Virus record (IMG/VR): IMGVR_UViG_3300002460_001118
Coordinates: 1-24,039 of that record
Length of the DNA stretch: 24,039 nt
Source of the DNA: a virus
Reading direction: 5' to 3' (one strand)
Shown here: positions 159 to 18,329 of the stretch, piece by piece
How positions within the stretch are numbered: the first letter of the stretch is position 1
Layout of the letters: the number at the start of each line of letters is the position of its first letter
The notes under the pieces: generated by a model
Seen by the model: the letters and a program-made list of their open reading frames with translations, nothing else
Databases searched by the model: none
Told to the model about the DNA's origin: nothing
Made by a program: the position numbers and the translations under genes

Positions 159-325
159 CTCTTTCCCTTTCTCGCCTTTTTGCCCTTGCCCTTGCGCTTG
201 GGCTTGCTCTTCTTGCGCGCCTCCTGCATCATCCCGGCCATGTCCATCATTTCCTCGTTGCGCATCATGTGGCCGCCGGGCATCTTGTGCTTCGTGTGCC
301 CACTTGGGTAGCCGTGCTTAGCCAT
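155..325 (-). CDS. Small His/Met/Lys-rich protein (56 residues)
   Basis: ATG 325 behind GGGAG, overlapping the previous stop. The N-terminal half, MAKHGYPSGHTKHKMPGGHMM, is rich in His, Gly and Met; the middle has EEMMDMAGMMQEA; the end is nearly all Lys and Arg (KPKRKGKGKKARKGKR). Small proteins with a KHKMPGGHMM-type motif occur in phage structural regions to my recollection. Could bind DNA or metal. Linked to the next gene by ATGA. Confidence 0.65.
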   Translation of the reverse strand: MAKHGYPSGHTKHKMPGGHMMRNEEMMDMAGMMQEARKKSKPKRKGKGKKARKGKR

Positions 326-728
326 CGTTCGTCTCCCTCGCTTCGTAGTCGGCGTTGTCTACCCTGGGGTATGACCGGAATGAGCCGAGAATGCGCCCGG
401 TCTTCTCGTACCACTTCTCCGGCTTCTCGGCCGGCCCCTTGCGTTTCCATGGCATCTCGGGCATGGTGAAGACGTAGCGATGCCCGCGCTCGAACTGGCG
501 TTCGTCGTCTACTTCCACAACAACTACCTCCCCGGTCCCGCCACGGCGGCCGTACTTCTTGTCGATGGAACGCGCTAGACCAGGATCGCGTGTCGTGAAT
601 GCGCCACTCGATCCGAACTTCATGAAACGGCCTTCGCCGCCAATGCCAATAACATCCTTCGTGGTGGCCTTGACGACCTCCCACATCTTGGCGCGTGTTA
701 CTTTACCGACTGTCCCTTTTCTGGGCAT
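318..728 (-). CDS. Hypothetical basic protein (136 residues)
   Basis: ATG 728 overlaps the dehydrogenase stop by 26 bases, with AGGA upstream. An N-terminal segment (KVTRAKMWEVVKATTKDVIGIGGEGRF) is followed by a beta-rich centre (TGEVVVVEVDDERQFERGHRYVFTMPEMP) and a basic, Tyr/Arg-rich end. No recognised domain and no metal site. The composition is that of a real folded protein rather than a shadow. The stop overlaps the next small gene by eight bases, so it belongs to the same operon. Confidence 0.65.
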   Translation of the reverse strand: MPRKGTVGKVTRAKMWEVVKATTKDVIGIGGEGRFMKFGSSGAFTTRDPGLARSIDKKYGRRGGTGEVVVVEVDDERQFERGHRYVFTMPEMPWKRKGPAEKPEKWYEKTGRILGSFRSYPRVDNADYEARETNDG

Positions 729-1587
729 TCAACCATTCCTGTACGATGCTGTAGACGATCTTAGCTGCCTTGGTGCGGCTGTCCACCGTTTCACCAGCGA
801 CGTGATGGGTGACAAGCATCCCCGCCCTGCGCAAGAGATTGTAGTCAGCGGCGCCGTTCTCCTCGCCCGATACGACATCAACGGCAATGCGCACGTCGGG
901 CCTCAGCTTGGCGAAAGCAACCAGATCGCGTTCCACTATGATATCACCTCTTGCGGTATTTATCAATATGGATTGCGGTTTCATCCTCTTGAGTAAGCCG
1001 CCATTGATGATGCTGCGCGTCTCCTGCGTCGAGGCGCAGCACACGATCACGGCGTCACAAGTCGCAAAGATCTGCTTCAACGTGCGCCGTCCAGGAGCAT
1101 CGACGTAAGGATCGTAGTAGAACACATCTGCGCCGAACAGGGTGCAATAGGACGTAAGCTTCCGTCCGATCCGTCCACGCCCGATGAGGCCGACACGCTT
1201 GCCGTCAAGTTCTCTCGCCGGCGGCCTGCGCAGGCGCTCCAGCAGCAACAGGAAGGTGAATTCGGAAGGAGCAGTGATCTTCTCTAGGTCTTCACGTCGA
1301 TCCGCCAGAGACCGGAATGCGATGCCGCGCTCTTGCAATATGTCAAGTTTGACATGACTGATGCCAATCGAGGGTGTCACCAAGAGCTTCAGCGCCGGAA
1401 AGTGGTCCAGTGCGTCCTCTTCCACGATGAAGCCTTGTTTGGGATTCACGACCCAGATCGAGACATCTTCGCCGCGCGGCAGGTTCTTGCGGTCCCAAAC
1501 TTCAAGCCAGCGGCAGTTGATCAGCGCATCGAAGTCACGCACGATCCAATGACTGAAGTCAACCGGAGCGGTGAACAGTAGCTTCAT
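703..1587 (-). CDS. D-isomer-specific 2-hydroxyacid dehydrogenase
   Basis: 294 residues. NAD(P)-dependent enzyme of the SerA/formate-D-lactate dehydrogenase family, interconverting 2-keto acids and D-2-hydroxyacids. Rossmann motif VGLIGRGRIGRKL (132-144), the acidic residue after the next strand in FYYDPYVDAP, substrate-binding Arg in NTARGD (Arg213), Glu in the SGEENG loop (242-243), and the general acid His in THHVAGET (260-267). AGGAG lies upstream of the ATG, inside the end of the oxidase gene. It is the last enzyme of the sugar-acid cassette; the matching oxidase/reductase pair suggests inversion or control of a 2-hydroxyacid, but the substrate is unknown. Confidence 0.88.
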   Translation of the reverse strand: MKLLFTAPVDFSHWIVRDFDALINCRWLEVWDRKNLPRGEDVSIWVVNPKQGFIVEEDALDHFPALKLLVTPSIGISHVKLDILQERGIAFRSLADRREDLEKITAPSEFTFLLLLERLRRPPARELDGKRVGLIGRGRIGRKLTSYCTLFGADVFYYDPYVDAPGRRTLKQIFATCDAVIVCCASTQETRSIINGGLLKRMKPQSILINTARGDIIVERDLVAFAKLRPDVRIAVDVVSGEENGAADYNLLRRAGMLVTHHVAGETVDSRTKAAKIVYSIVQEWLNAQKRDSR

Positions 1588-2614
1588 ACAATGTTCTCCT
1601 GTCTATCTGATCTACTGAGGTCAGGCCGAGCAGCGCCATCGATGTTTCGAGTTCTCGCTTCAAGATACCGATGGCCAATTCAACGCCCTTCTGTCCGTTG
1701 ACGAGTAGTCCATAGAGGTAGGGCCGCCCAATCAGGACTGCTGACGCCCCAAGGGCCACGGCCTTGATGATGTCCGTCCCTCTGCGGATGCCGCCATCCA
1801 CGATAATGGGCAGCGACGTGGCCGCGACGATCTCCGGTAGTACATCGATTGCAGACGGTAATCCGTCAAGACTGCGCCCCCCATGATTGGAAACAATGAC
1901 GCCGGATACACCGTGGTCTTGGGCGCAAATCGCGTCGTCTGGTCTAAGAACGCCCTTGATCCACACCGGGACGTTTACGGCTTTGCAGATGTGCTCTAGG
2001 TCTTGCCATGTGAAGTCCGGCGCCAAGCGCGGGTGGTATATTCCCCCGCGGGCCGGGTTCTTGACTCCGAATAGATGCGGTGGTTTCACCCACCTCGGAA
2101 GTTTGATGTGTCTCCACGCATCACGAAGACCGTGAACGGGCTGATCTACGGACACCACGATTGCTTTGGCGCCAGCGCGCAGGGCGCGGTCTAGGAGACG
2201 ATCCGTGAAGTCTCTGTCCGATTGTGGGTACAGTTGGAACCATAGATCGCATCCCGTGCCCGCCACCATCTCGATGGGAATCGACGACATGGTACTCAAG
2301 ATCGTCGTCACGCTGCTATTGTGAGCTGCCCGTCCGACGCCGATCTCGCCAGACCAATGAACAAGTATACCTGCCCCGGTAGGGGCAAGTAGGATAGGCA
2401 ATGCGTGGCGCTCTCCAAGAATTGTGGTCGAAGTATCTACACGCGACACGTCCACACATGCCCTGGGAAGCAGTCGGATTTCCTCCAGGGCGCTGATGTT
2501 TCTGTGAAGCGTCCACTGATCGCCTGCCCCAGTGAATATGAATGCGCGCTGTCGTTTACTGGCTCGCTTGTAGGCCAGCCGCTCCAGTTCCGGTATACTC
2601 CCAGGCTTAGACAA
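1559..2614 (-). CDS. FMN-dependent L-2-hydroxyacid oxidase/dehydrogenase
   Basis: About 351 residues; no ATG fits, so TTG 2614 (or TTG 2620) is taken, with GAGGG upstream and overlap with the NeuB stop. Family: glycolate oxidase/L-lactate dehydrogenase, FMN TIM barrel turning a 2-hydroxyacid into a 2-keto acid. Motifs: GAGDQWTLHRN near the N-terminus, DVSRVDTSTTILG, WFQLY, SVDQP, WIKGVL (catalytic-site Lys), SNHGGRSLDG (catalytic His and Arg), DGGIRRGTDIIKAVALGA and LIGRPYLYG. The Tyr that in spinach glycolate oxidase is Tyr24 is Phe here, otherwise the active site looks complete. It overlaps the next dehydrogenase gene by 29 bases. Confidence 0.85.
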   Translation of the reverse strand: MSKPGSIPELERLAYKRASKRQRAFIFTGAGDQWTLHRNISALEEIRLLPRACVDVSRVDTSTTILGERHALPILLAPTGAGILVHWSGEIGVGRAAHNSSVTTILSTMSSIPIEMVAGTGCDLWFQLYPQSDRDFTDRLLDRALRAGAKAIVVSVDQPVHGLRDAWRHIKLPRWVKPPHLFGVKNPARGGIYHPRLAPDFTWQDLEHICKAVNVPVWIKGVLRPDDAICAQDHGVSGVIVSNHGGRSLDGLPSAIDVLPEIVAATSLPIIVDGGIRRGTDIIKAVALGASAVLIGRPYLYGLLVNGQKGVELAIGILKRELETSMALLGLTSVDQIDRRTLYEATVHRSG

Positions 2615-3263
2615 TGGCAACCCTCGATAGTGGTCTCCCAATCTCGACCAACGTCTTGAGCTCCTCGGGGCTGGCGCTGAATGGATTATCGCGCACCGAT
2701 GTCGGAACCTTGTTGAGTGTGAAGTGCTTCTCGATGTAGCGTGCCCCGCGCGCAACAGCCAGCAGGCAAGTTTCGATGCCGTGGGTGTGGTCGCTGTAGC
2801 CGTAGTAGCGATGGAACGACGGGGGCATGCCCTCGACCTTCAGCGTCGGATACTGGTCCGTGGTGAAGATCCAGCGCACATTGTGCCGCCACGGACGCCC
2901 GTGGTCAATGGGGGTCGTGACCGAGACGAACGTCTCCGCACCGCCCAGAAGCACCTTCTCGACGAGTGGATCGTCAGCCATCTGGTGGGCGATCTTGAAG
3001 CGCTTCATCCCGACCGACTGGGCAATGTCCAGTCCCGCCTCACTCCAGATCGAGGCCATGAACTCGATCCCGATGAGACGGCAGTAGTCTGCCACCGCCC
3101 CGGCGAACTCATAGGAGACGTGGCGCACGGGGTCGTCTTTGGGCCAGCCCAGTTGCATCTTGAAGATGTCCGCCCCCGCCCACTTCGCCAAGCGGGCCAT
3201 CTCACAGGCCAGGGCGGGGCTTCCCTCGTGCATCGAACCAATCTCGGCCACAAAGCGTATCAT
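2607..3263 (-). CDS. NeuB-like ulosonic acid synthase, short form
   Basis: 218 residues. The NeuB family condenses phosphoenolpyruvate with a hexosamine-type aldehyde to make a nine-carbon 2-keto-3-deoxy acid in the cytoplasm. Visible TIM-barrel motifs: AEIGSMHEG (6-14), GADIFKMQ (30-37), YGYSDHTHGIE (154-164) and RYIEKHFTL (175-183); the His residues in the last two match the metal-binding histidines of NeuB. Typical NeuB proteins are about 330-350 residues because of a C-terminal antifreeze-like (SAF) domain; that domain is absent and the region after the first sheet is also compressed. GGAG upstream; coupled by ATGA to the zinc protein. Confidence 0.85.
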   Translation of the reverse strand: MIRFVAEIGSMHEGSPALACEMARLAKWAGADIFKMQLGWPKDDPVRHVSYEFAGAVADYCRLIGIEFMASIWSEAGLDIAQSVGMKRFKIAHQMADDPLVEKVLLGGAETFVSVTTPIDHGRPWRHNVRWIFTTDQYPTLKVEGMPPSFHRYYGYSDHTHGIETCLLAVARGARYIEKHFTLNKVPTSVRDNPFSASPEELKTLVEIGRPLSRVAIV

Positions 3264-3547
3264 TCTTGATTCTCCAGTTCTTCATAGTCGTGGGGCAATT
3301 CTCGCATCGGCAGCACCTCGACTGGTCTGCGCTCCTGCGCCGCCTCCAGGCATCTGGGACACGGGGCGATGAAAACGAGGTTCTGTCTACGCCGCGGAGA
3401 CTTGGCCACAATAACATCTTTACACAGGCCGTGGTGACACACGCTACAGCGAATCTCAAAGAACACCTTGCCCGTGAGATGGGGCGTCTCCCTTTCTCCG
3501 TCTTTGTTCTTCGCGTCAGGTCCGTAGTAGACGCCGCGGATCTTCAT
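3260..3547 (-). CDS. Zinc-binding small protein between sugar genes (95 residues)
   Basis: 95 residues with CSVCHHGLC (about 34-42) and CPRC (about 63-66), giving a probable zinc-ribbon site. The N-terminus KIRGVYYGP and central EIRCSVC region look beta-structured; the C-terminus is acidic. Start ATG follows the cytidylyltransferase stop by two bases with a weak ribosome-binding site; its own stop overlaps the NeuB-like start as ATGA. Not a known part of sialic acid pathways; it could be a regulatory or structural partner. Confidence 0.65.
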   Translation of the reverse strand: MKIRGVYYGPDAKNKDGERETPHLTGKVFFEIRCSVCHHGLCKDVIVAKSPRRRQNLVFIAPCPRCLEAAQERRPVEVLPMRELPHDYEELENQE

Positions 3548-3551
3548 GCCG

Positions 3552-4316
3552 TCATCTCTGTCTCATCAGTGCTTCGGAAAGAATGAAATCGACCTCGGTG
3601 TCGATATTCACCGACCTTTCTGGCGGCATGAGCCAGGGGCGGCTATTCTCGTGCCCGAACAGCCGGCCGTTGGGTCCCATTAGGGAGCCACGCCGAACAC
3701 AGTAGATCGATCCGTTGCGGATGTACGCCTTCGGCTCCAGCAAGCGCCTTTGCCCGTGTTGCGGTTCGGGCACACAGAAGTCCACGATCTTGCCGTTGAC
3801 CAGTTTCTTCACGCGCGCCGGGTGATGGTCCTCAAGCACCGTCATGCCGATCACGCTGTCGGCGGCCAATATCTGGAGTTTCTCGACTGCGCCATCGATA
3901 TCCTCAACCGTCTTGAATGGATTGGTCACGCGCAGCTCGACGACGATGGAGCATTCGCGTCCAAGTCGCGTCTCTATCTCGCCCACGGCATGCCGCAGCG
4001 CATCGAGCGAGGGCGTGTTGTCCTGCGCCAGTTCCGGAGGCCGCAAGATAACGTCGCATCCACTCTCCAGAGCCAATTGCATCGCAAACTCGTCGTCCGT
4101 GCTCACCACGATGCGGTCGATGTACTGCGACGCCTTGGCCTCATCAATGGTATACATGATGAGTGGCCTTCCCAGGAGTGGGCGCACGTTCTTTCCTGGC
4201 ACGCCCTTCGATCCGGCGCGCGCCAAGACGACTCCTAGAACAAATGTATCACTCAGCGCGTCACGAAATACAAGATCACGAGCAGCACGAGGGATGTCAA
4301 CATCAACGCTATCCAT
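3552..4316 (-). CDS. CMP-ulosonate (NeuA-type) cytidylyltransferase
   Basis: About 254 residues from ATG 4316, which has GGAG eleven bases upstream; this start lies inside the membrane-peptide gene, and a longer form from ATG 4337 is possible. Activates a 2-keto-3-deoxy sugar acid (sialic, legionaminic, pseudaminic or Kdo type) with CTP to give a CMP-sugar. The diagnostic nucleotide-binding motif is LARAGSKGVPGKNVRPLLGRP (31-51). VVSTDDEF, PSLDALRHAV, ELRVTNPF and, near the end, NIDTEVDF with likely metal-binding Asp residues follow the family. The exact sugar cannot be told. It pairs with the NeuB-like gene downstream. Confidence 0.85.
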   Translation of the reverse strand: MDSVDVDIPRAARDLVFRDALSDTFVLGVVLARAGSKGVPGKNVRPLLGRPLIMYTIDEAKASQYIDRIVVSTDDEFAMQLALESGCDVILRPPELAQDNTPSLDALRHAVGEIETRLGRECSIVVELRVTNPFKTVEDIDGAVEKLQILAADSVIGMTVLEDHHPARVKKLVNGKIVDFCVPEPQHGQRRLLEPKAYIRNGSIYCVRRGSLMGPNGRLFGHENSRPWLMPPERSVNIDTEVDFILSEALMRQR

Positions 4317-4375
4317 GCCAGGTATATCTCCTTCCATGTATCGAATGGGTGATCGTCGTGCAGGTCTTTCTTCAT
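4253..4375 (-). CDS. Single-helix membrane peptide (40 residues)
   Basis: ATG 4375 overlaps the methyltransferase stop as ATGA. Charged, His/Asp-rich N-terminus (MKKDLHDDHPFDTWKE) followed by one strong transmembrane helix, IYLAWIALMLTSLVLLVILYFV, ending in a Thr-Arg tip. Probably cytoplasmic N-terminus. The 3' half overlaps the start of the cytidylyltransferase gene in another frame. It could anchor the sugar-modifying enzymes to the membrane or be a holin-like peptide; only the topology is supported. Confidence 0.65.
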   Translation of the reverse strand: MKKDLHDDHPFDTWKEIYLAWIALMLTSLVLLVILYFVTR

Positions 4376-4932
4376 TTCGTCGCCACCGCAATCAGCGGCG
4401 TCAACCGCGTGGTCTCGTCCTGTTCGTTGTTGAGTGTCCAATCAAAGAGTTGGACCCGTCCAAATGAAAGGGATAACGCATCGCGGAACTCGCGCGCTGT
4501 CCATTCTCTCTCGTGGAGCCAGTTCCGGCGCAGGTCGGCGTGGGCGTTGCGGGCCGACACGAAGAGATGACCCCCGTTTACGAGATTGAGGGCGATGTTC
4601 GCAAGCGCTGCCTGCCACTCCACGATGTGCTCCAGCGCCTCGATCATCACCGCTGCCTGGAACAGGGTGTTGCTCCGCCACGTGCGGGCGTCTCCGTGTA
4701 TCCATTGTATATTCGCGGCCTTGAGATGCTTCTTGGCGAAATCCACCGCCTCGGGGTTCTCTTCGATAGCCGCGATGTGCCGCGCAAAAGGCGTGAACTG
4801 GAGTGTACCAAATCCGGTACCAAATCCGATCTCCAGCACACGTGCGTCCGCGAGATGAGGCGCGATGGTCTCGTAGAGATCCATCTGCGGACTCATGAAG
4901 TACCGGAAACGTCGCCAAAGAATGTCAGCCAT
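4372..4932 (-). CDS. Class I SAM-dependent methyltransferase
   Basis: 186 residues from ATG 4932, chosen because GGAGG lies just upstream and the ATG overlaps the previous stop by eight bases. Rossmann-like SAM fold: motif I VLEIGFGTGFG (32-42), acidic end of strand 2 in AAIEENPEA (54-62), HGDARTW (79-85), and VMIEALEHI (95-103). The sequence resembles small methyltransferases that act on small molecules, sugars or lipids; no DNA-methylase NPPY/DPPY motif. Because it sits between the glycosyltransferase/pentapeptide genes and the CMP-sugar genes, an O-methyl group on a glycan is one idea. Coupled by ATGA to the membrane peptide. Confidence 0.85.
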   Translation of the reverse strand: MADILWRRFRYFMSPQMDLYETIAPHLADARVLEIGFGTGFGTLQFTPFARHIAAIEENPEAVDFAKKHLKAANIQWIHGDARTWRSNTLFQAAVMIEALEHIVEWQAALANIALNLVNGGHLFVSARNAHADLRRNWLHEREWTAREFRDALSLSFGRVQLFDWTLNNEQDETTRLTPLIAVATK

Positions 4933-5683
4933 CGGCCCTCCGCGCACTATTCCCTTGAAACGACATCGCGCCCGTAAAGTTGCGAGACACGACCACGAAG
5001 CCCTCTGCCGGTTCAAGCGCCCACTCGCCCGTCGCCTGGTTGTACCAGCGGACGAAGCTCGCCTTGTCCTTGTGCGCCACGTGGTCCGTGATAGCGCCGT
5101 CGAAGCGCGCGCCCCAGAAGTCGGCGTAGCGCACGTCGCAGAACGTCATGTCTGTCCCGAAGAACTGCGCGCTCTCGGCCATCGCGTGCCGCAGCCACAC
5201 CCGCCACATCTTGGCATCCAGGAAGCTGGCGGCCTTCATGTAGGCCATACTCATGTCGGAGCCGGATAGATCGGCGTCCTCAAACTTCGCCAGACGCAGG
5301 CAGGAACGCGAGAAGTCGCACTTGATGAGTGTTGCACCGGTAAAGTCTGCCCCCTCGCAGTCCGCGCCCCTGAAGTTGGCGTTGGTCAGGTTCATGCCCC
5401 GCAAGTTCGCACCGCGCAAGTCCGCCCTGCGTAGATCCGCACCCACCAGCAATGCGTGCGCGGCGACCATGTTCTTGGGATCGAGGCGGTCATTCTGTAG
5501 ACGGGCAATGATCTCCAGGTAATGCCGGTTGTGTTCTGCGCGCCAGCGCGCTAGCCACTCCTGCTCGCTCTCGCCTTGCGGACCCTTACCGCGGTTCGTG
5601 ATCGCTTCTACGACCGCGCGGTGATGTCCCAGGGTCGGGAAGCCGTTCTTGTCGTACTGGCAGTCGCCGATCTCAATTCGCAT
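4925..5683 (-). CDS. Pentapeptide-repeat protein, paralogue 1
   Basis: 252 residues, longest of the trio. Residues 1-75 form a helical N-terminal extension (HHRAVVEAIT, WLARWRAEHNRHYLEIIARL) absent from paralogue 2. Residues about 78-200 are regular pentapeptide repeats (GADLRRADLRGANLRGMNL, then GADFTGATL), expected to fold as a beta-helix. Then FWGARFDG..TD, KASFVRWYN and SFQGNSAR match the common C-terminal tail, though more weakly (the GGxxSY.P.PG part is altered to GEWALEPAEG). Ribosome-binding site weak; start coupled to the upstream zinc-finger gene. The stop overlaps the methyltransferase start by eight bases. Confidence 0.85.
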   Translation of the reverse strand: MRIEIGDCQYDKNGFPTLGHHRAVVEAITNRGKGPQGESEQEWLARWRAEHNRHYLEIIARLQNDRLDPKNMVAAHALLVGADLRRADLRGANLRGMNLTNANFRGADCEGADFTGATLIKCDFSRSCLRLAKFEDADLSGSDMSMAYMKAASFLDAKMWRVWLRHAMAESAQFFGTDMTFCDVRYADFWGARFDGAITDHVAHKDKASFVRWYNQATGEWALEPAEGFVVVSRNFTGAMSFQGNSARRADG

Positions 5684-6023
5684 GGATCAACACCATCTTT
5701 TCTTTGGGAAGTTTTCCCATCTTGTGCGTCATAGTCGCCCACACAAAGTCCACACCATCGGTCCCTTCGGGCACATTCTTCCGTATGATCTCTTCGGTGA
5801 ATTGCAGAGTGCAGACGTACTGCGATCCTCGATAGCAATGAATGCGCACACATTGGTCGAGAACCCCCACGCGTTCTGTCCAACACACCAATCCGTTTAG
5901 GAACCACGGGTTGCGCGGTCCCAGCGTCGTATTGCGATACGGCGCGTGGTCAGACGCCCCACACCCAATACATGGCTTTCCATCATTAGAAAAGCGCCCA
6001 CAGTATGCGCAGTGTTTACTCAT
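5673..6023 (-). CDS. Small zinc-finger-type protein (116 residues)
   Basis: Begins MSKHCAYCG with four Cys at 5, 8, 18 and 21 (CxxC...CxxC), a compact N-terminal zinc knuckle. The rest is a mixed alpha/beta region with NPWFLNGLVCWTERVG and RIHCYRGSQYVCTLQF, ending in PKEKMVLIHAN. The ATG overlaps the end of the second pentapeptide gene by eight bases and the stop overlaps the next pentapeptide gene by eleven. A nucleic-acid or protein-binding role is possible; not recognised as a named family. Confidence 0.7.
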   Translation of the reverse strand: MSKHCAYCGRFSNDGKPCIGCGASDHAPYRNTTLGPRNPWFLNGLVCWTERVGVLDQCVRIHCYRGSQYVCTLQFTEEIIRKNVPEGTDGVDFVWATMTHKMGKLPKEKMVLIHAN

Positions 6024-6582
6024 TTTCTATCTTCTCCCTTGCCGCGTTCTCTTGGAACGTGATCGTGCCCAGCGCGCTTTCAGTCATCTTGGGCCACCCA
6101 GGAACTGGCTCGTAAGACGCCGGCCCGCCATGCGGGTTACTCCACCAGATGTACGTCGCCTTGCTGGCATTGCGCATGAGTTCGGTAGTCGTGCCGTCGA
6201 ACTTGGCCCCAAGAAACTCCGCGAATGCCACATCCGCCAAGGTCATGTCGCAGTTCACGAAGAGGCTGTTCTTGGCGTTGGCCCGCCGCCAGATCGACGC
6301 CGCCAGCATGCAACCACGAAACAACACGCCCTTTAGGTAGGCCATACTCAGGTCTGCACCCGTCAGATCGCATTCCTGGAACTCCGCCAGATAGAGATTG
6401 GCGCGGCTGAAGTCCGTCTTGTGGAAGCTGCACTGAATGAAGATCGCCCGCGAGATGTCAGCCGCCCGCAGGTTGGCGTTGTCGAAGTGCACGCCGACGA
6501 AGCGCTTGCCCTTGAGAGAACAGCGTTCAAGATTGGCGCCCGTAAGCGAAGCCCTGCGCGCAATGTCAAAGCGTGTCGTCAT
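6016..6582 (-). CDS. Pentapeptide-repeat protein, paralogue 2
   Basis: 188 residues from ATG 6582, taken because it overlaps the previous stop as ATGA; extra upstream codons belong to the zinc-ribbon gene's territory. Pentapeptide repeats start almost at once (residues 10-130: TGANLERCSL, NANLRAADIS, SRANLYLAEF, TGADLSMAYL). The tail GAKFDGTTT (125-133), KATYIWWSNPHGGPASYEPVPGW (141-163), ESALG and TFQENAAR (168-182) is the clearest copy of the C-terminal domain shared by all three paralogues. The shortest of the three, lacking the N-terminal helical extension. Function unknown; a beta-helix acting by surface mimicry or as a structural spacer is possible. Confidence 0.85.
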   Translation of the reverse strand: MTTRFDIARRASLTGANLERCSLKGKRFVGVHFDNANLRAADISRAIFIQCSFHKTDFSRANLYLAEFQECDLTGADLSMAYLKGVLFRGCMLAASIWRRANAKNSLFVNCDMTLADVAFAEFLGAKFDGTTTELMRNASKATYIWWSNPHGGPASYEPVPGWPKMTESALGTITFQENAAREKIENE

Positions 6583-7088
6583 TCGCAATTCCCGCACTGG
6601 AACTTGCCCGGCCGGACAACCGACATCGCGTCCTTGCCGCACGTCGGGCACGTCTTCGAGATCGTCTGATACCCATCGCTGATCACCACGTCGTCCCGGT
6701 CAACGGTATATGGCGGGAACAAACAGGCATCGCACAGCGTCTTGATCCAGTACTCGCCGCGCGCCCTGCCGGGTTGGCCGCAGATCTCGCACGTTTTCTG
6801 TGAATCCACCTCGGCCCAATGGATCAAGTTGTTCACCCACTGCGGCGCGCTGCCGATGTAGAAGCGCAGCGCGCCGTACTTCTCCTTCACCTGGTAGATC
6901 CATGTGCCGGTTTTCAGGCATGCTTGGAAGCACTTCTCAACCAGCTCTCCCCACCCCGGCAGCACACACCCCTGGACCTGTTTCAGAGACCACGACTTGC
7001 CCAGAACTGCCGCAGGAACCCGGCGACGGAGACGCAGGAACCAGATGTGCGGGCGTGACTGGTACCAGTGCCAGAGAAGCGTGTTCAT
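6579..7088 (-). CDS. Double zinc-ribbon protein of a phage-type conserved family
   Basis: 169 residues. Contains the string WIYQVKEKYGALRFYIG (63-79) followed by an AE..S..TCEICGQPG segment; this combination, with KE(K)xGxLRFY before a CxxC zinc site, recurs in conserved hypothetical proteins of phages and bacteria. Four Cys (100, 103, 119, 122) form one likely zinc site and Cys147, 150, 165, 168 a second, C-terminal ribbon. The N-terminus is Trp/Arg-rich. Zinc ribbons often contact nucleic acid, but no nuclease residues are evident. Start ATG overlaps the previous stop (ATGA), with GAGG upstream. The stop overlaps the second pentapeptide gene by ATGA. Confidence 0.75.
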   Translation of the reverse strand: MNTLLWHWYQSRPHIWFLRLRRRVPAAVLGKSWSLKQVQGCVLPGWGELVEKCFQACLKTGTWIYQVKEKYGALRFYIGSAPQWVNNLIHWAEVDSQKTCEICGQPGRARGEYWIKTLCDACLFPPYTVDRDDVVISDGYQTISKTCPTCGKDAMSVVRPGKFQCGNCE

Positions 7089-7480: not shown

Positions 7481-7658
7481 CGATCCACTCCCATCTCCAC
7501 CCAAAGAACACACGATACCAGAAACGACGCCATAATCTCGGCCTTGTCTCAAAACAGATAACAATCTCGTCCGTACCGAATGGCGTCAACTTCCATGGGC
7601 GCGGTGTCACGGTGCCAGCCCATGTTTCATATGCGTTCATGTTTTCTCCTGCGTTCAT
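7473..7658 (-). CDS. Small Trp/Arg-rich protein (61 residues)
   Basis: Starts at ATG 7658 (coupled by ATGA to the pentapeptide gene) or at ATG 7640; a tandem duplication gives each start its own GGAG. The conserved-looking core is RPWKLTPFGTDEIVICFETRP, followed by an aromatic/basic end with LWRRFWYRVFFGWRWEW. This end could lie on a membrane surface or in a protein contact. No known domain. The stop overlaps the next gene by eight bases. Confidence 0.6.
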   Translation of the reverse strand: MNAGENMNAYETWAGTVTPRPWKLTPFGTDEIVICFETRPRLWRRFWYRVFFGWRWEWIDE

Positions 7659-7668
7659 GTTTTCTCCC
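7633..7668. repeat. 18-base tandem duplication of a ribosome-binding site and start codon
   Basis: Two adjacent units, 7633-7650 and 7651-7668, identical in 17 of 18 bases. On the coding strand each holds GGAGAAAAC followed by ATGAACGC, so the following small gene has two in-frame starts, each with its own Shine-Dalgarno. Being six codons long, the duplication keeps the frame. Confidence 0.85.
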
Positions 7669-8338
7669 TCATGTTGCGAGATACACGGCCGGCGTTCTCC
7701 TGGCGCGTGTAGCGGCCCATGGCCGACTCTTCCAAGACCTCACACCCCGGAAACGGGATGTACGACGGCCTGCCGCCCAGCGGGCTCAGGAACCAGCGGA
7801 ACGTGGCCCAGCGGATGTTCTGTAGCCCGTCCGTGCGCGCTCCGTCGAAGACCGCGCCCAGCATCTCGGCGCCCAGGATGTCCGCACCACGCAGATCGGC
7901 GTCGAAGAACAGGGCATTCTTGCACGTGGCACGCTTCAGAACCGTGTGCCACATGCGCGCCCTGGTGAAGTTTGCCGCCCGAAGGTAGCTCATCGACAGA
8001 TCGGCGAGAGACAAATCGGCTCCCTCGAAGTCGCACAGATGCAAGCACGCCCTGGACAGATCAGCCCCGACGAGAATCGCACCCCGTAAGCTTGACCCGG
8101 ACAGATCACACCCGCGCAGGCTTGCGCCGGTTAGGTTTACGTTGTCCAGGTTCTTTCCGCGCAGGTCCGCCCTTTCCAGCGTCGCCCCCACCAGGCAGTA
8201 CGACCGGATGATCTGCTCCTGGGTCTCCGCGGGCGGAAAGTTCGTCGATGAACTCTTGGGACTCATTAGAATAGACAGCTTTCCTTGTTTTATCCACTCT
8301 TTCCTCGTAGCCGGGTCCAGCTGGAGTCTTCCGGTCAT
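7655..8338 (-). CDS. Pentapeptide-repeat protein, paralogue 3
   Basis: 227 residues. ATG 8338 has an excellent AGGAGG seven bases upstream, although this puts 233 bases inside the glycosyltransferase ORF. Residues about 47-170 are pentapeptide repeats of the A(D/N)LxG type (GADLSRACL, GADLSLADLSMSYL), predicted to form a right-handed quadrilateral beta-helix. After them comes a tail shared with the two other paralogues in this window: LGAVFDG..TD, a Trp/Phe segment, LGGRPSYIPFPG (187-198), ESAMG and QENAGR (204-218). Pentapeptide proteins of other families mimic DNA or inhibit gyrase; nothing here proves that role. The stop overlaps the next gene by ATGA. Confidence 0.85.
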   Translation of the reverse strand: MTGRLQLDPATRKEWIKQGKLSILMSPKSSSTNFPPAETQEQIIRSYCLVGATLERADLRGKNLDNVNLTGASLRGCDLSGSSLRGAILVGADLSRACLHLCDFEGADLSLADLSMSYLRAANFTRARMWHTVLKRATCKNALFFDADLRGADILGAEMLGAVFDGARTDGLQNIRWATFRWFLSPLGGRPSYIPFPGCEVLEESAMGRYTRQENAGRVSRNMREKT

Positions 8339-9305
8339 GCAATGCCTCCTGAATCTTCTCTACACTCCCCAAGACGGGCAACTGCTCTGGGTACTCGATA
8401 GGGGGGTACTTCTCCGCCAGCACGATCCAGTCCCGGATCTCTTCGAGTCGGCCGTCGATCTTGTACAACTGAATGGACACATTCGCGAGATCGGCCTGCG
8501 ATTGCGGCGACGGGTTGTCCTGGTGGGCCTTCTTCACCGGGTTCACGGTCGATTTGACGAACCCCTTGCGATAAGCCTCCAGGATGCGCAAACGCTGGCG
8601 GTAAGCTTGAGCAGACATTCCGTACCTCCTGAGTCGTTCCTCGAATCGGTCTTCCATTTCCTTGCCGAGTTCCACGTCTTCGCGCAACGCGTCGTAGGCG
8701 CCGTGATCCAGCCAGATCGTCGTCGCGTGCGCACTGTGGACGGACGCATCCAGCCATACTTTGTATCCGAGTTTGCGGGCAATCAGATAGAAGCGCACGT
8801 CTGGCCCAAACGTCTCGCCGGGACTTGCCCACGGCACTTGCCCCGCCGAGAATAAGGGGTCTCCGTTGGGCATGTTGGCGGCCACGTCCTCGATGACCTT
8901 GCGCGACATGAACGCAATGCCCCAGCCGCCCGAGCCGATCTCGTGCAGCCCTTCCCTGGGCGGATCAAACATCGGCAGAAGGGGCCAGCCCTCATCCAGC
9001 TCCAGGATGGCGCTCTCCATGGGGGATGTCTTGCGCTTGTAGTAGTGACCGCAGACGATATCCAAACCATGCGAGCGCAACCGTTCCAGGGCGTCCTTCT
9101 GGTGCTTCATGTCGGCGTCCAGCAACAGCATGGCGTCGAACGGCTCACCCAGGAACATGCGGGCGTGCTCCTCACGCGCCACGTAGCCCTGGGTGTCATA
9201 CCTGGGGTACAAAGCATCGCCGTCACTTCGCTCCATCTCGAAGCATGTCATCAGTCCAGAGACATACTGTTGGGAGGAACTCGTGACGGCGATGTAAGTG
9301 CGCAT
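8106..9305 (-). CDS. GT-A type glycosyltransferase-like protein
   Basis: 399 residues. Residues 1-200 follow a GT-A glycosyltransferase plan: N-terminal beta strand (TYIAVTSS), DAMLLLDADMKH with the metal/nucleotide-binding DAD at 63-65, GSGGWGIAFMSRKV (124-137), GETFGPDVRFYLIARKLG (163-180) and a late His in VHSAH (189-193). The enzyme should move a sugar from a nucleotide donor to an acceptor, possibly virion proteins or surface glycans. A helical C-terminal extension (about 205-330) follows. Its last 77 codons overlap the next gene in another frame, and the final Gly/Pro/Arg-rich 35 residues look like shadow sequence. AGGA lies before the ATG. Confidence 0.75.
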   Translation of the reverse strand: MRTYIAVTSSSQQYVSGLMTCFEMERSDGDALYPRYDTQGYVAREEHARMFLGEPFDAMLLLDADMKHQKDALERLRSHGLDIVCGHYYKRKTSPMESAILELDEGWPLLPMFDPPREGLHEIGSGGWGIAFMSRKVIEDVAANMPNGDPLFSAGQVPWASPGETFGPDVRFYLIARKLGYKVWLDASVHSAHATTIWLDHGAYDALREDVELGKEMEDRFEERLRRYGMSAQAYRQRLRILEAYRKGFVKSTVNPVKKAHQDNPSPQSQADLANVSIQLYKIDGRLEEIRDWIVLAEKYPPIEYPEQLPVLGSVEKIQEALHDRKTPAGPGYEERVDKTRKAVYSNESQEFIDELSARGDPGADHPVVLPGGGDAGKGGPARKEPGQRKPNRRKPARV

Positions 9306-9859: not shown

Positions 9860-11104
9860 TTATGCGTCACCCTGGCTTGACACTTCGGCGCGCATGATGC
9901 GGCTCTGAACCAGGATGCCGAACCCGCCATACCACTTGTACCCGAGGCTGATGAACTGATCCACCAACCCGTCCCGTCTCGGGCCAACGATCTGGCCGTA
10001 CTCGCCTACGGACGTGGCGTAGATCTTCGCCAGTGATTCGGGTCCGCCAAAGACGATGGTGTACACCGTGTCGTCGTTGGTGACGCGGGATCCCGCGGCA
10101 TGCGGGAAGCGGAACCCGCCGTTGTCGGCTTCACCGAGAATGGTCACGGTCGAACCGGTGTGACCCACGTACAACACGCGCTCCGCTTCCGGTTGGTGCG
10201 TGTTGCCGCTCTCGGCGGTCGTGTTCATCGACAGCCAACCCTGCCCGAAGGTCGTCAGGTTGGTGACGGCCGCAACGTTCATGCTCGTCGCCAGGGCGTT
10301 CACTGCGGTTTGCAGCGTCGTTTCGACCGCTGCCGCGTTGGCTGCGCCAGCCCCGCCGAAGACCTTGGCCCACGGCGAGATCACGAGGCGGAACTTGCCC
10401 AGTGCACCCAACTCGCTGTTCAGGATGATGTCCGCCTTCTGGTACTGGGCGATGGACACAACGTTCCCGCCCTGGCGGATGTCACCGTAAACGTACGGAT
10501 GGGTGTACGCACCCCAGGTAGCTCCAGGGCCATTGGCGAAGCCACTGTAGCCCGGCACCTTCAGGGTCTCGATGCGCGAGGCGATGCTGTTGAACATGAT
10601 GTCGTCCGCGCGGTGCCCGGAAGTGCCGGCGTCCAGCGTGCTTCTCGCAGCGACCTTGGTCGTGCCGCCACGCCAGAAGTTGGATCCTTGCGTCGCAGCG
10701 TCGCGCGCCAAGACCTCGACGGCTTCCATCATGCCCCGCCCAACTTTGCTGTACATCTTCGCGCCGTAGTTGGTGTAGGCCTGGATCAGGATCAACTCAG
10801 AGGCCTGCAACGCATCGGCGCGGCTGGTCGGTGTGAGGGATGCGGTCGCATCGCGTAGCGCCTGCGGCGTGATGTCCACGACCTCGGAAATGGCTGAGGT
10901 CGCCACGCGCATCTCGCTCAGGAACTCAACCTGAACACTGGTACCGCGTTGCAACTCTTCGAGGTTCTTCCCAATGGGAGACGCAAGCTGGTCGTAGAAA
11001 CGCACCATCTGTGCGCCTTCCAGGTAGTCCTCGACGTACTGCGTCCGCACTGAATTGGACAGTGCTTGACCGCCGGCTGCGGCGGTTACAACTTGGATGG
11101 TCAT
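9860..11104 (-). CDS. Major capsid protein, probably N4-gp56-like
   Basis: 414 residues, suitable for a HK97-fold capsid protein. The N-terminal half contains VEFLSEMRVATSAISEVVDITPQ and a long helix with ALQASELILIQAYTNYGAKMYSKVGRGMMEAVEVLARDAA; the middle has an insertion-like segment with YTHPYVYGDIRQ; the C-terminus ends GYKWYGGFGILVQSRIMRAEVSS, resembling the ends of N4 gp56-family capsid proteins. Position after the scaffold and downstream of a strong promoter agrees. Family naming is from memory of motifs and is less sure than the capsid assignment. No protease cleavage region at the N-terminus is obvious. Confidence 0.85.
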   Translation of the reverse strand: MTIQVVTAAAGGQALSNSVRTQYVEDYLEGAQMVRFYDQLASPIGKNLEELQRGTSVQVEFLSEMRVATSAISEVVDITPQALRDATASLTPTSRADALQASELILIQAYTNYGAKMYSKVGRGMMEAVEVLARDAATQGSNFWRGGTTKVAARSTLDAGTSGHRADDIMFNSIASRIETLKVPGYSGFANGPGATWGAYTHPYVYGDIRQGGNVVSIAQYQKADIILNSELGALGKFRLVISPWAKVFGGAGAANAAAVETTLQTAVNALATSMNVAAVTNLTTFGQGWLSMNTTAESGNTHQPEAERVLYVGHTGSTVTILGEADNGGFRFPHAAGSRVTNDDTVYTIVFGGPESLAKIYATSVGEYGQIVGPRRDGLVDQFISLGYKWYGGFGILVQSRIMRAEVSSQGDA

Positions 11105-12176: not shown

Positions 12177-12205
12177 AGTATAGTGGAATTGTTTGTACTT
12201 GTCAA
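12177..12205 (-). promoter_or_regulatory. Near-consensus sigma70 promoter for scaffold and capsid
   Basis: On the minus strand TTGACA (12200-12205; perfect), 17 bases, TATACT (12177-12182; 5 of 6). The -35 box contains the TGA stop of the giant gene. The predicted start near 12170 leaves a leader of about 16 bases carrying GAGGAGGT before the ATG at 12154. It would give extra transcription of scaffold and major capsid genes. Confidence 0.8.
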
Positions 12206-15200
12206 TCCTGCAATAGCGATTGCAGTTGTTCAATGGATAGTCCCAGTTCTTTAGCAACGGTCTCAAGGCGCTGTAGCACAGCCTGCGGCAGCGGTTCCGT
12301 ATCGCGCGCAAGGCGGTAAACCGCGCCACCGAGAAGCGTCTGCCATTCCTGGGCCGTGTAGTTCGGCTGCGCCGCCTGGACTGCACGCAGTTCGGCTTCG
12401 GACTTGTATTTCGGGTACCGGGCAGGGTCGTCTTCCAGGTAGGGCGCCAGGTCCGGGTTGCGGTACATGAAGTCCCGCCGCCAATTCCAGTACTGTTGCA
12501 GTTTGGGATGAGCCCGCAGAAAGTCCTTGCGTGCCTGGCCTTCCTGTAGTTGGAAGTAGTCATGCTGGAGCGGCCAAAGCGTGTCGTTGTAGTCCATCCG
12601 CTGCTCGCGGATGTCGTAGAAAACCTGCACGCGATTGGCGACTTCTGGACTGGTCAAAGGCGGTAGCCCGCCACGCACGGTCATCGATCCGGGTGGATCT
12701 CCGCCCATGAACTTCAACCAGACGCCCATGGTGTCTACGGGGACGTTCGCTGTAGATCTCGTCTCGGGATTGAGGAAGCCGTACACGAACTCCGGCCCCA
12801 ATTGCGCCTTGACCTCATCGCGGTGGAGCTGCGGCAGGTTGTTCCATGCGTTCCACAGTTCATCGGCCAAGAACGTGCGCATGCGCTCGTCGGGCGAGTC
12901 ATACAGTGCAAGCCGCGCCTCGTACTCCGGATGCTGGTCGTAGAACTGCTTCACGGCGTCGTCGTCGCCGTCTTCGTAGGCTTTCCATGCACCCTGGTAC
13001 TCTACCGCCAGTTCCCGCATGCGCTCTTCGCCTGGCGGGTAGGCAGCGGCTGGGATGGCAAGCGTCGATCCCATGGCCGACACGCCGTATTCGATGGCCG
13101 CGCGGCGCTGCGCCTCTTCGAAAGCCTCTCCATTGCGCTCGATCATGGCCCGGCGCGCCTCGGTGGACGAGATGTCACCCGTGGCAGCCATGTTCGCCAG
13201 CATGCGGTCTACACGGTAGTCTTCCCACTGGTCGAATGCGGGTAGCCCAAGCGACTTGCGGATCGCCGCCCCGACGCTGTTCAGGCCTTCGCTGGGCGGA
13301 ATACCCAGCAAGCCCTGGACGCCGGCCACAGTCCTTGAGAAAGGCAGGATTGGTCCGATGCGCTCCGGCTCGCCGCGCGCCAGGTTGTACGCCCACAGAA
13401 GGGGCGCATGCGGCGATGTGAAGAGTGACATGAAGTCGAAGCCGTTCAGCCGCCCCTCGGCATCGTCCTGGCGCGCTAGTACCATGGCGCGTTCCCACGC
13501 CGGGCCGGTGCGCGTAGTAAGGGCCAGGTTGTAATCCTGTTGCGTTATCTTGCCATCATTGACCAATTCCCGCAATACTCTTTCGGCTGCGCCCTGATCA
13601 CGCATGGTCTGCGAGGCGAATTGTTCGAATGGCTGGTTCCAACTGTCGAAAGGCAGTACTGCACGCAACGGATCGACGAACACGCCATCGCCTAGCCAGT
13701 CGGGCAGGAACGGCAGCGGTATCTTGATGCGCCCACGCAGGCGTGTGGGTAGGCGTTCCTCGTTGGGGCCGTAAGCCGAGTCAAGGAAGCGGCGTGTTCG
13801 CAGGTAAGTGGATAGCATCGCTGGTCGGTCGAGAGAATGCAGTGCCCACTTCATCACCGACTGGGTGAACCAGAACTCGTAGGGGAAGATCGCGCCCAGC
13901 CAGGTGTTGTAGTTGAAGCGCCGTGAGTAGTTCAACAGCGCCGAGTCACGCACGTACTCGCCGAAGCGCGTGGAGGCGAAGCGTGCATCGGCCATCTTGC
14001 CCTTGAGGCCTTCGATGTTGGCGCGCAACATATTTTGCACGTCCGGCGTCATGTTTCCGAAGCGCAACGGTTTCTTGCGCGCCAAGACCTCTAAGGAGTC
14101 GGAAAGCGCATCGAACACCTCGCGCCCGCGCGTGTACCACAGTTCGTCCACACCGGTGCTCATGTACAACTGGCGCGGCACGACGGTGTGGAAATTGGGC
14201 AGCGCCGCATGCTGCGTGGTAGGTCCTGCGACCATGCCGGGCACGGGGCGCAATTTGTCGTCGATATCGGCCATCCGCGCCTTGATAGCATCGTGCGCCG
14301 CTTTCGGCGTGGCTGCATCCCAGAGACGCTTGTTGAGCACGTCGTATTCCGCATTCAGCGCCTCGGTAGCTTGTTGTGCGGCCTGTTGGTAGGGCGCGCC
14401 CGCTTGCGCATTGCCAGCCATCGCTGCCAGGCCGCGGTTCTCCTCGTCCCAAATCAGCGATAGACGGGCGGCGCGCCTCTGGTTCTCAGCGGCAAACGCC
14501 GCATAGCGCTCCTCTTTGGTCATGCCCTGCAACTGCTGATAGAACGCCCGTACCGCTTCTTTGTCGGCCTGGCGCATGTTGGCGACGGACGCCCGCCATT
14601 GCAGGTATGCACCGCGCTGTTCCGCCGGCAACATCGAGGCGACGGACTGGTCCATGCGCCCCATGTATTCCCCCTCTAGCTCGATCATCTTGCCGTAGCG
14701 CTGGTCGAGTTCAAGAACGATCTCTTCGGCCGTACGGCGCGGGGTCTCGCCCGCGATGAGTGCTTCCCAGTAGTTGTCCCACGCCTTAGACTTGAAGTTG
14801 AAGTAGTCCTTCCAGCCACGACGCCACTCGCGGAACGTGCCCGTAAGGGCGTCGGAGTTGGGCAGGTTGATGGCCTTGGCTCCGCGCGAGAAGCCTTCCA
14901 GACGCGCCTCGACGCGTGTCCATGTCCTTTCCCAGAACGAACCAGACTGCGCCCGTAGTTGTTGCCAGATCACCGAGGCCGCTTGGGGGTCAGTCGCCCT
15001 GCGGGCGAGCTCCGCCATCTCGGCGTTCTCGGAGATCGTCTTCTGCATGCCGCCCCAGAATTCGTCTGTGATGGCGGTCCAGATCTTGGGGTAAGCCCCG
15101 ATCTTCTCTGTCTCGGTAAGCGCCTGCGCCTCGTCGATCATGTTCTGCACGGCGGCGTCCAGACGCTCGTCGAGGACCTGATTCATGCGTCCCACGAGGC

Positions 15201-17685: not shown

Positions 17686-18329
17686 TAGAATCTCCAGTTC
17701 ACGAGGCCATACGCGCCGCCGAAGCCCGCGCCGCGGGTAACGCCGCCGGTGTTCTGGGGCACGTAGTCGTCCTGGTAGTATCCGCCCCCAGAACCTCCAT
17801 CGCCGGTCACGGTTATGGTTATGTCCTCGGCACCCTCTTCGGGCGGCGGGGAGATCCACGGGCTACCTGGGCGTCCTGCCCCTGGTTCATATTGGAAAGG
17901 CTCTGTCCTTCTGGGGGGGACGACATTCCCAATGTAATCCACGCCGCCCCCAAGCGGCCTTGATCGTACCGGTCCACGCGTGACAACTCCCGTTGCGGAT
18001 AGTGGTCCTCCGGGCTGTTTTACGCCGCCAACCTTCGGTACTTGCTGTAAACCAATGGTCGCTCCTGCCGTAATAGGTACACCATAATCTACCCCCCCGC
18101 CTAGAGGATTTACTCGCAGTTGCCTGGGCGCCGCCTGCGCACCAATGGAGGCCGCCGCGGATCCGGGCTGGACACCAATCCGCGCGGACGCGGCGCCGGG
18201 AACGGCAGTCGCGCCACCGCCGGTAAGATTCACGAGGGGAATCTGCGGTGTGGGCGGCCTAGTAATTCGTGGCGTCGGCGGTTGCTGCGGTTTCGGTTTC
18301 GGCCTGGGCTTCTGTCCCGCTCCTGGCAT
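17685..18329 (-). CDS. Pro/Gly-rich repeat protein, probable virion accessory
   Basis: About 214 residues from ATG 18329, chosen over an upstream TTG because GGAGAGAG sits a few bases before it. Residues 1-30 are Pro/Lys-rich. The centre holds imperfect repeats: ARIGVQPGS, ASIGAQAAP and ATIGLQQVP, and two copies of PLGGGVDY followed by Gly/Val-rich sequence. The C-terminal part is acidic then Gly/Tyr-rich (GGSGGGYYQDDYVP). Low complexity throughout, with no catalytic motif and probably unstructured. The stop overlaps the start of the giant gene (TAATG), and both proteins have a Pro-rich N-terminus, suggesting they work together in the virion. Confidence 0.65.
   Translation of the reverse strand: MPGAGQKPRPKPKPQQPPTPRITRPPTPQIPLVNLTGGGATAVPGAASARIGVQPGSAAASIGAQAAPRQLRVNPLGGGVDYGVPITAGATIGLQQVPKVGGVKQPGGPLSATGVVTRGPVRSRPLGGGVDYIGNVVPPRRTEPFQYEPGAGRPGSPWISPPPEEGAEDITITVTGDGGSGGGYYQDDYVPQNTGGVTRGAGFGGAYGLVNWRF

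Follow-up and report, generated by a model that had tools for sequence, protein, structure and literature searches.

Why should a phage carry, among its virion genes, enzymes of acidic-sugar synthesis next to enzymes of 2-hydroxyacid metabolism? The question is raised by the IMG/VR virus record IMGVR_UViG_3300002460_001118, a metagenomic fragment of 24,039 bases that was analysed over its full length (hereafter the window) and whose recognisable genes all lie on the minus strand. An initial annotation, made from the letters alone, had placed a cassette of four sugar-acid pathway enzymes here, and strong Pfam matches on the minus strand bear out all four: a NeuA-type cytidylyltransferase, a NeuB-like synthase, a flavin mononucleotide (FMN) oxidase and a D-2-hydroxyacid dehydrogenase (D2HDH). 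Three of them, namely NeuA, a short NeuB and D2HDH, form a recurrent unit that we found in dozens of phage contigs. The cassette consists of the following open reading frames (ORFs), listed in gene order, with lengths in amino acids (aa).

3552..4316, minus strand: NeuA/PseF-type cytidine monophosphate (CMP)-ulosonate cytidylyltransferase, 254 aa, ATG at 4316; PF02348 (CTP_transf_3), 3e-24
3260..3547, minus strand: 95-aa ORF with CxxC-type cysteine pairs, between NeuA and NeuB
2607..3263, minus strand: short NeuB-like phosphoenolpyruvate (PEP)-dependent ulosonic acid synthase, 218 aa; PF03102 (NeuB), 1.4e-25
1559..2614, minus strand: FMN-dependent (S)-2-hydroxyacid oxidase/dehydrogenase, 351 aa, start most likely TTG at 2614; PF01070 (FMN_dh), 1.9e-110
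703..1587, minus strand: nicotinamide adenine dinucleotide (NAD)-type D2HDH, 294 aa; PF02826 (2-Hacid_dh_C), 2.8e-32

With Pfam E-values between about 1e-24 and 1e-110, the enzyme genes cannot be chance calls. The frames are tightly packed, with 4 nucleotides (nt) between the NeuA stop and the next start, followed by overlaps of 4, 8 and 29 nt. The four genes are thus coupled as had been described, but they are not strictly consecutive because the 95-aa ORF splits NeuA from NeuB. This ORF had no match in Pfam, PHROG or NCBIfam and was not detected at any surveyed NeuB locus.

A recurrent unit of NeuA, short NeuB and D2HDH

Single-protein scans of viral contigs yielded nothing for the NeuB and FMN queries and one distant locus for NeuA, and alignment-based scans were needed. 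When an alignment of four short NeuBs served as the query against viral contigs and the best 80 loci were kept, D2HDH lay within 5 kb of NeuB in 31 of them. All 31 D2HDH-linked NeuBs are short (220-277 aa), and NeuA is present in 30 of these loci; among the viral loci with a NeuB longer than 300 aa, none has D2HDH (0/23; Fisher p about 1e-6, with near-copies not removed). A reverse scan, with patterns drawn from NeuB-linked D2HDHs, found NeuB adjoining in 17 of 17 loci, and of the eight new contigs that it brought in, seven carry a short NeuB and one (L213) a 331-aa frame. Among the best 80 bacterial NeuB loci, searched with 20 D2HDH query sequences, D2HDH was found in none; nearly all of their NeuBs exceed 300 aa. 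The locus counts include near-identical contigs, and the bacterial sample comprises these 80 loci and one cyanobacterial family.

In a tree of 151 NeuBs, the D2HDH-linked short NeuBs fall into at least three supported groups, which means that the link between NeuB and D2HDH is either old or has been remade. One group unites the window with the related phages G007 and G009 (support 96) and has a Magnetospirillum protein as its sister (97); another is a second phage group (support 100); the third comprises 19 NeuBs (support 99), including one picocyanobacterial and one Flavobacteriaceae protein. The third group also contains the NeuB of a marine contig, G001, in which D2HDH lies between NeuA and NeuB and an enolase-superfamily gene of the mandelate racemase type (MR_MLE; L018:15310-16383) lies between NeuA and D2HDH. 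The D2HDH of G001 is only about 20% identical to the other D2HDHs, and its sequence suggests that one dehydrogenase may have been replaced by another.

The FMN oxidase behaves differently. It is absent from all 160 surveyed NeuB loci (80 viral and 80 bacterial) and from the cassettes of G007 and G009, and the other viral FMN_dh loci that were found contain no NeuA, NeuB or D2HDH. In a NeuB context, it is therefore private to this phage. The four-gene order proposed in the initial annotation thus fails as a conserved unit, and its idea of a sugar-acid pathway unit survives for NeuA, NeuB and D2HDH, which act as a unit in other phages, with the FMN oxidase left outside. Likewise, of the two redox enzymes that had been set beside NeuB, D2HDH is a recurrent partner and the FMN oxidase a peculiarity.

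A search of a cultured-phage collection turned up no trio. Matches to FMN_dh and D2HDH in that collection were not counted as phage evidence, as they come mostly from unannotated or host-like records, cellular contigs that bear a phage label. Several records named as phage, OR844991.1 and CAKLQH020000009.1 among them, hold host-type metabolic genes (lactate dehydrogenase, serA, pdxB) and look like host contamination.

Occurrence in cells

We rejected the notion that the trio is confined to phages, since picocyanobacterial islands carry it, though rarely. Within a picocyanobacterial family of 251 genomes, five have a D2HDH that scores above the background of long phosphoglycerate-dehydrogenase-like matches. 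The picocyanobacterial loci include short NeuB-D2HDH-NeuA (L253), NeuB-D2HDH-NeuA with a NeuB of 323 aa (L256), NeuC-like epimerase-NeuB-D2HDH-NeuA (L257), and D2HDH with a glycosyltransferase-like gene (L255). The fifth, a Synechococcus single-cell genome (L254:10775-13271), has D2HDH-NeuA beside a gene of the 3-deoxy-D-arabino-heptulosonate 7-phosphate (DAHP) synthase family, which replaces NeuB. Because L257 has a NeuC-like epimerase in the same cluster, D2HDH is tied to an ulosonic acid pathway. The rare presence of the module in picocyanobacterial surface islands means that the genes may pass between hosts and phages.

Short NeuBs also occur in polysaccharide-type clusters of Magnetospirillum (L118) and Flavobacteriaceae (L169), there with no D2HDH. 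A 253-aa short NeuB of a Marine Group I thaumarchaeote (L186:4533-5291) groups with the viral L097 (support 99).

A synthase that ends with its barrel

The window NeuB ends after the barrel, with no C-terminal antifreeze-like/SAF domain and no equivalent of Arg314, and it falls short of most cellular NeuBs by some 90-140 aa. Its AlphaFold2 model shows a complete eight-stranded barrel (pLDDT 92.3, pTM 0.90). In structure comparisons that covered Foldseek candidates and so leave other folds or families possible, the model matched NeuB-family structures at Z 22.9-27.7 (root-mean-square deviation 2.2-2.8 over 215-217 residues), sialic acid synthases scoring Z 25.7-27.7, with 6ncs of Leptospira borgpetersenii and the meningococcal 1xuu/2wqp as the best matches (Z 25.8-27.7), and 3-deoxy-D-manno-octulosonate 8-phosphate (KDO8P) and DAHP synthases at Z about 19. 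The Leptospira protein is NeuB-like with a chain of 290 residues, against 218 aa in the phage, and meningococcal NeuB, unlike the phage enzyme, carries an antifreeze-like domain. KDO8P and DAHP synthases are, like the phage protein, PEP-condensing barrels without an antifreeze-like domain (PMC6795526), but the phage NeuB belongs to a different sequence family, PF03102.

The residues compared were taken from PMC6795526 and partly from general knowledge. In meningococcal numbering, the window NeuB keeps E25, K53, Q55, K129, Y186, S213, H215, E234, H236 and D247; it carries the substitutions T110 to S, F112 to W, S132 to H, E134 to M and N184 to D; and N74, F288 and R314 map to missing or unaligned parts. 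An E134 equivalent is retained in the NeuBs of G007 and G009, and the key PEP and metal residues are invariant across 31 divergent short NeuBs. In meningococcal NeuB, Arg314 of the antifreeze-like domain is essential and R314A abolishes activity (PMC6795526; see also PMC7591256 for this residue and domain). As the domain with its essential Arg is missing, the aldose is probably not recognised in the way that N-acetylmannosamine is, and we infer that the phage NeuB keeps PEP use but recognises its aldose differently.

In phage G007, a stub of a NeuB start (FIAELGSMHKGIGG and then a stop; L033:1590-1650) precedes an inserted ORF and the intact NeuB. The inserted ORF encodes 224 aa, looks glycosyltransferase-like by eye and has no Pfam match. 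Such a stub points to a recent insertion or duplication event within that cassette.

NeuA, D2HDH and the FMN oxidase

NeuA keeps both its N-terminal ARxGSKGxxxKN motif and its C-terminal NID metal-binding motif. Its best NCBIfam match is PseF (TIGR03584), at 105.8 bits under an equivalog cut-off of 205.7 bits, and the family match therefore does not fix its specificity. The closest solved relatives are CMP-N-acetylneuraminic acid synthetases, and the protein is 52% identical to NeuA of phage G007.

D2HDH keeps the catalytic R213/E242/H262 and the GxGxxG Rossmann motif, together with an Asp of the kind seen in NAD-using enzymes. Its fold matches D-2-hydroxyacid dehydrogenases at Z about 26, and it is 18-27% identical to solved relatives. 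It shares its fold, the R/E/H residues and the NAD-type Rossmann motif with McyI, phosphoglycerate dehydrogenase and D-lactate dehydrogenase, and differs from known D-2-hydroxyacid dehydrogenases in being coupled to NeuB and NeuA.

The FMN enzyme aligns over nearly its full length with lactate and glycolate oxidase structures and shares their catalytic residues, with equivalents of His254, Arg257, Lys230, Tyr129 and Asp157 kept. It differs in having Phe for the substrate-binding Tyr24 (glycolate oxidase numbering) and Met for Trp108 in the alignment; its substrate is not predictable. The active sites of the cassette, examined for degradation, are not broadly degraded, although NeuB S132/E134 and FMN Tyr24 are replaced; decay of several active sites, which the initial annotation had named as a ground for its refutation, was thus not observed.

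An accessory slot among virion genes

The sugar-acid cassette indeed lies inside a virion gene block, as had been proposed: the terminase (TerL), portal and major head protein of the window all match PHROGs. After the head gene come a 134-aa protein, a glycosyltransferase, three pentapeptide-repeat proteins with small ORFs, a methyltransferase, the cassette and a 136-aa protein. The genes flanking the cassette are these.

9860..11104, minus strand: major head protein, upstream border region of the slot; phrog_1357, 1.6e-18
8106..9305, minus strand: glycosyltransferase, 399-aa ORF; PHROG glycosyltransferase, 3.7e-9; 31-32% identity in four relatives
7655..8338, minus strand: pentapeptide-repeat protein 3; pentapeptide families
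6016..6651, minus strand: pentapeptide-repeat protein 2; PF13599, 2.7e-27
4925..5683, minus strand: pentapeptide-repeat protein 1; PF00805, 1.6e-27
4372..4932, minus strand: class I S-adenosylmethionine-dependent methyltransferase, adjoining NeuA upstream; Methyltransf_23/25/11; 47-48% identity to the G004 and G005 copies
318..728, minus strand: 136-aa protein that bounds the slot downstream; conserved in G004-G008, with an unannotated homologue in MW202608

The cassette had been described as lying downstream of a glycosyltransferase and a methyltransferase. The methyltransferase does adjoin NeuA, but the glycosyltransferase is set off by the three pentapeptide-repeat proteins and small ORFs. 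The latter gene, for which a Pfam search gave no match, adjoins the head genes and is kept in the relatives G004, G005, G007 and G009.

Terminase relatives were sought in IMG/VR and yielded three short records as well as eight larger ones, G002-G009. Among the latter, G002 represents the phage of the window itself (100% identity over 13.9 kb) but stops short of the cassette. G007 and G009, whose major head proteins are 54-55% identical to that of the window, have at the same site after the head genes a NeuA (52%), an FkbM methyltransferase, a short NeuB (38%) and a D2HDH (39-41%); in G007, a homologue of the 136-aa protein directly follows the trio. Among the relatives compared at the slot, the trio is absent from G003-G006 and G008. 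There, G004 and G005 have a glycosyltransferase and a methyltransferase only, so that the methyltransferase occurs in relatives lacking the cassette as well, and G003, G006 and G008 have other sugar-related or uncharacterised genes. In MW202608, a complete circular podovirus genome from Manatee Spring with a major head protein 50% identical to that of the window, the interval from the head decoration gene to the next large gene is taken up by a single gene of 164 aa and the homologue of the 136-aa protein. Because its contents vary among G003-G009 and MW202608, the slot between head and tail genes is an accessory, glycan-leaning cargo site, and the cassette is one of the loads that it can carry.

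The three pentapeptide-repeat proteins between glycosyltransferase and methyltransferase, of which G007 and G009 have two, are puzzling in a virion block; all three are neighbours of the cassette, and pentapeptide-repeat protein 1 probably lies outside the pathway. Between the portal and head genes, window positions 12202-17859 encode a protein of 1,885 aa that has no Pfam match and, along most of its length, has homologues in G007, G009, L013 and MW202608.

Proposed pathway and alternative explanations

We read the cassette as a phage-borne, host-supplemented route by which a CMP-activated 3-deoxy-2-ulosonic acid, an acidic sugar related to sialic acid, would be made for a glycan under phage direction, and consider this reading evenly poised between right and wrong. 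Given its family, fold and conserved PEP and metal residues, the short NeuB would join host PEP and a host aldose, or an aldose-like aldehyde, to a 3-deoxy-2-keto acid, which the NeuA/PseF-type enzyme, to judge from its family, would convert to the CMP-ulosonate. A phage or host glycosyltransferase would then transfer the sugar to a target made late in infection, most likely a virion protein or the infected-host surface, and the methyltransferase may cap it. D2HDH, whose association with the pathway is observed, would interconvert a 2-keto and a D-2-hydroxy acid within it; our favoured guess for its purpose is the supply of a D-2-hydroxyacyl substituent, e.g., D-glycerate or D-lactate. The FMN oxidase of this phage would turn an L-2-hydroxy acid into the 2-keto acid, and the pair would invert L to D. 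Campylobacter flagellin offers a precedent for a hydroxyacyl group combined with methylation, as its pseudaminic acid bears di-O-methylglyceric acid (PMC3068675). The arrangement resembles the bacterial sialic, legionaminic and pseudaminic acid pathways (NeuC-NeuB-NeuA, PseI-PseF) in that a PF03102 synthase stands beside a CMP-ulosonate cytidylyltransferase, but differs in that the phage has no recognised NeuC, its synthase lacks the antifreeze-like domain, and D2HDH, here with the FMN oxidase, is added. For NeuC, no Epimerase_2 match was seen among the Pfam-scanned genes of the window, several others of which were scanned against PHROG only, and the genome is incomplete.

Several points weigh against this reading. 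The cassette has no recognised enzyme for activating a hydroxyacyl group or passing it on, and this makes the guess that D2HDH serves an acyl donor less secure. The sugar, the substrate and the target are all approached indirectly, and the His and Met at the S132 and E134 positions mean that activity of the window NeuB is not assured. The cassette comes from a metagenomic fragment and one assembly, backed by syntenic relatives, and the reverse scan is biased by its starting patterns and covers this D2HDH subfamily only.

In a different role, D2HDH acts on the ulosonate skeleton or its precursor, setting or removing the C2 keto group between aldonate and ulosonate, and so yields a structurally new sugar acid; the FMN oxidase here and the enolase-superfamily enzyme of G001 would then be alternative upstream sugar-acid steps. 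In the loci searched, this D2HDH subfamily always occurs with NeuB, and it sits within NeuA/NeuB where no acyl-handling gene is recognised; the MR_MLE gene between NeuA and D2HDH in G001, and the Synechococcus D2HDH-NeuA pair with its DAHP-synthase-family gene in NeuB's place, point the same way. However, CMP-ulosonate enzymes normally use the hemiketal at C2, which reduction of the C2 keto group would remove; the composition of the cassette around D2HDH varies; and to our knowledge there is no pathway in which a dehydrogenase acts on the ulosonate skeleton in such a way. We consider this role unlikely, though worth keeping in view. As for the target, it is quite possible, if a little short of an even chance, that the product modifies the infected-host surface, against superinfection or by changing lipopolysaccharide or capsule, rather than the virion. 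Short NeuBs stand in cellular polysaccharide clusters (L118, L169), and the trio of large phages lies among glycosyltransferase- and epimerase-like genes; yet in this phage family the slot is flanked by head genes and connector-like genes, and four relatives have the glycosyltransferase by their head genes, an arrangement that suits late virion proteins equally well. DNA modification was set aside as a target, as no gene supports it.

Two further explanations fare worse. That four unrelated accessory metabolic genes were gathered by chance in a variable region is very improbable: the slot is clearly variable, and the explanation stands for the FMN oxidase, which has a NeuB context only here, but it is disfavoured for the trio, which was met again in dozens of phage contigs, with NeuBs of at least three lineages and whether the search set out from NeuB or from D2HDH, and the cassette frames mostly overlap. 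Very improbable, too, is a short NeuB that is a decayed remnant of an inactive cassette. The missing length and the changed S132 and E134 positions of the window copy would fit decay, but the barrel is complete and modelled with high confidence, the key PEP and metal residues do not vary among the 31 short NeuBs, and the frames are open in the copies examined. Returning to the CMP-ulosonate route, the bolder claim that several phage lineages share a dedicated pathway to an undescribed CMP-ulosonic acid, with a domain-less NeuB, D2HDH as a core step and, in this phage, an FMN oxidase feeding it, is one that we hold tentatively and with more doubt than belief.

Significance

NeuB and NeuA have already been listed in viromes, as single genes in a table (PMC3877843). 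Our literature search, in which subscription journals were thinly covered and which is thus weak evidence of novelty, found no description of the trio or of a domain-less phage NeuB. The recurrence of the trio in dozens of phages suggests that they have a route to a sugar as yet undescribed. If so, the genes of numerous uncultivated phages go beyond mere glycosyltransferases to a pathway of their own for an activated acidic sugar, probably a sugar whose biosynthesis has yet to be worked out. A NeuB that is active in spite of lacking the antifreeze-like domain would inform how substrates are chosen in this enzyme family, and the steady pairing with D2HDH would open a missing step of the pathway to direct testing, both in phages and in cyanobacteria that have the trio.

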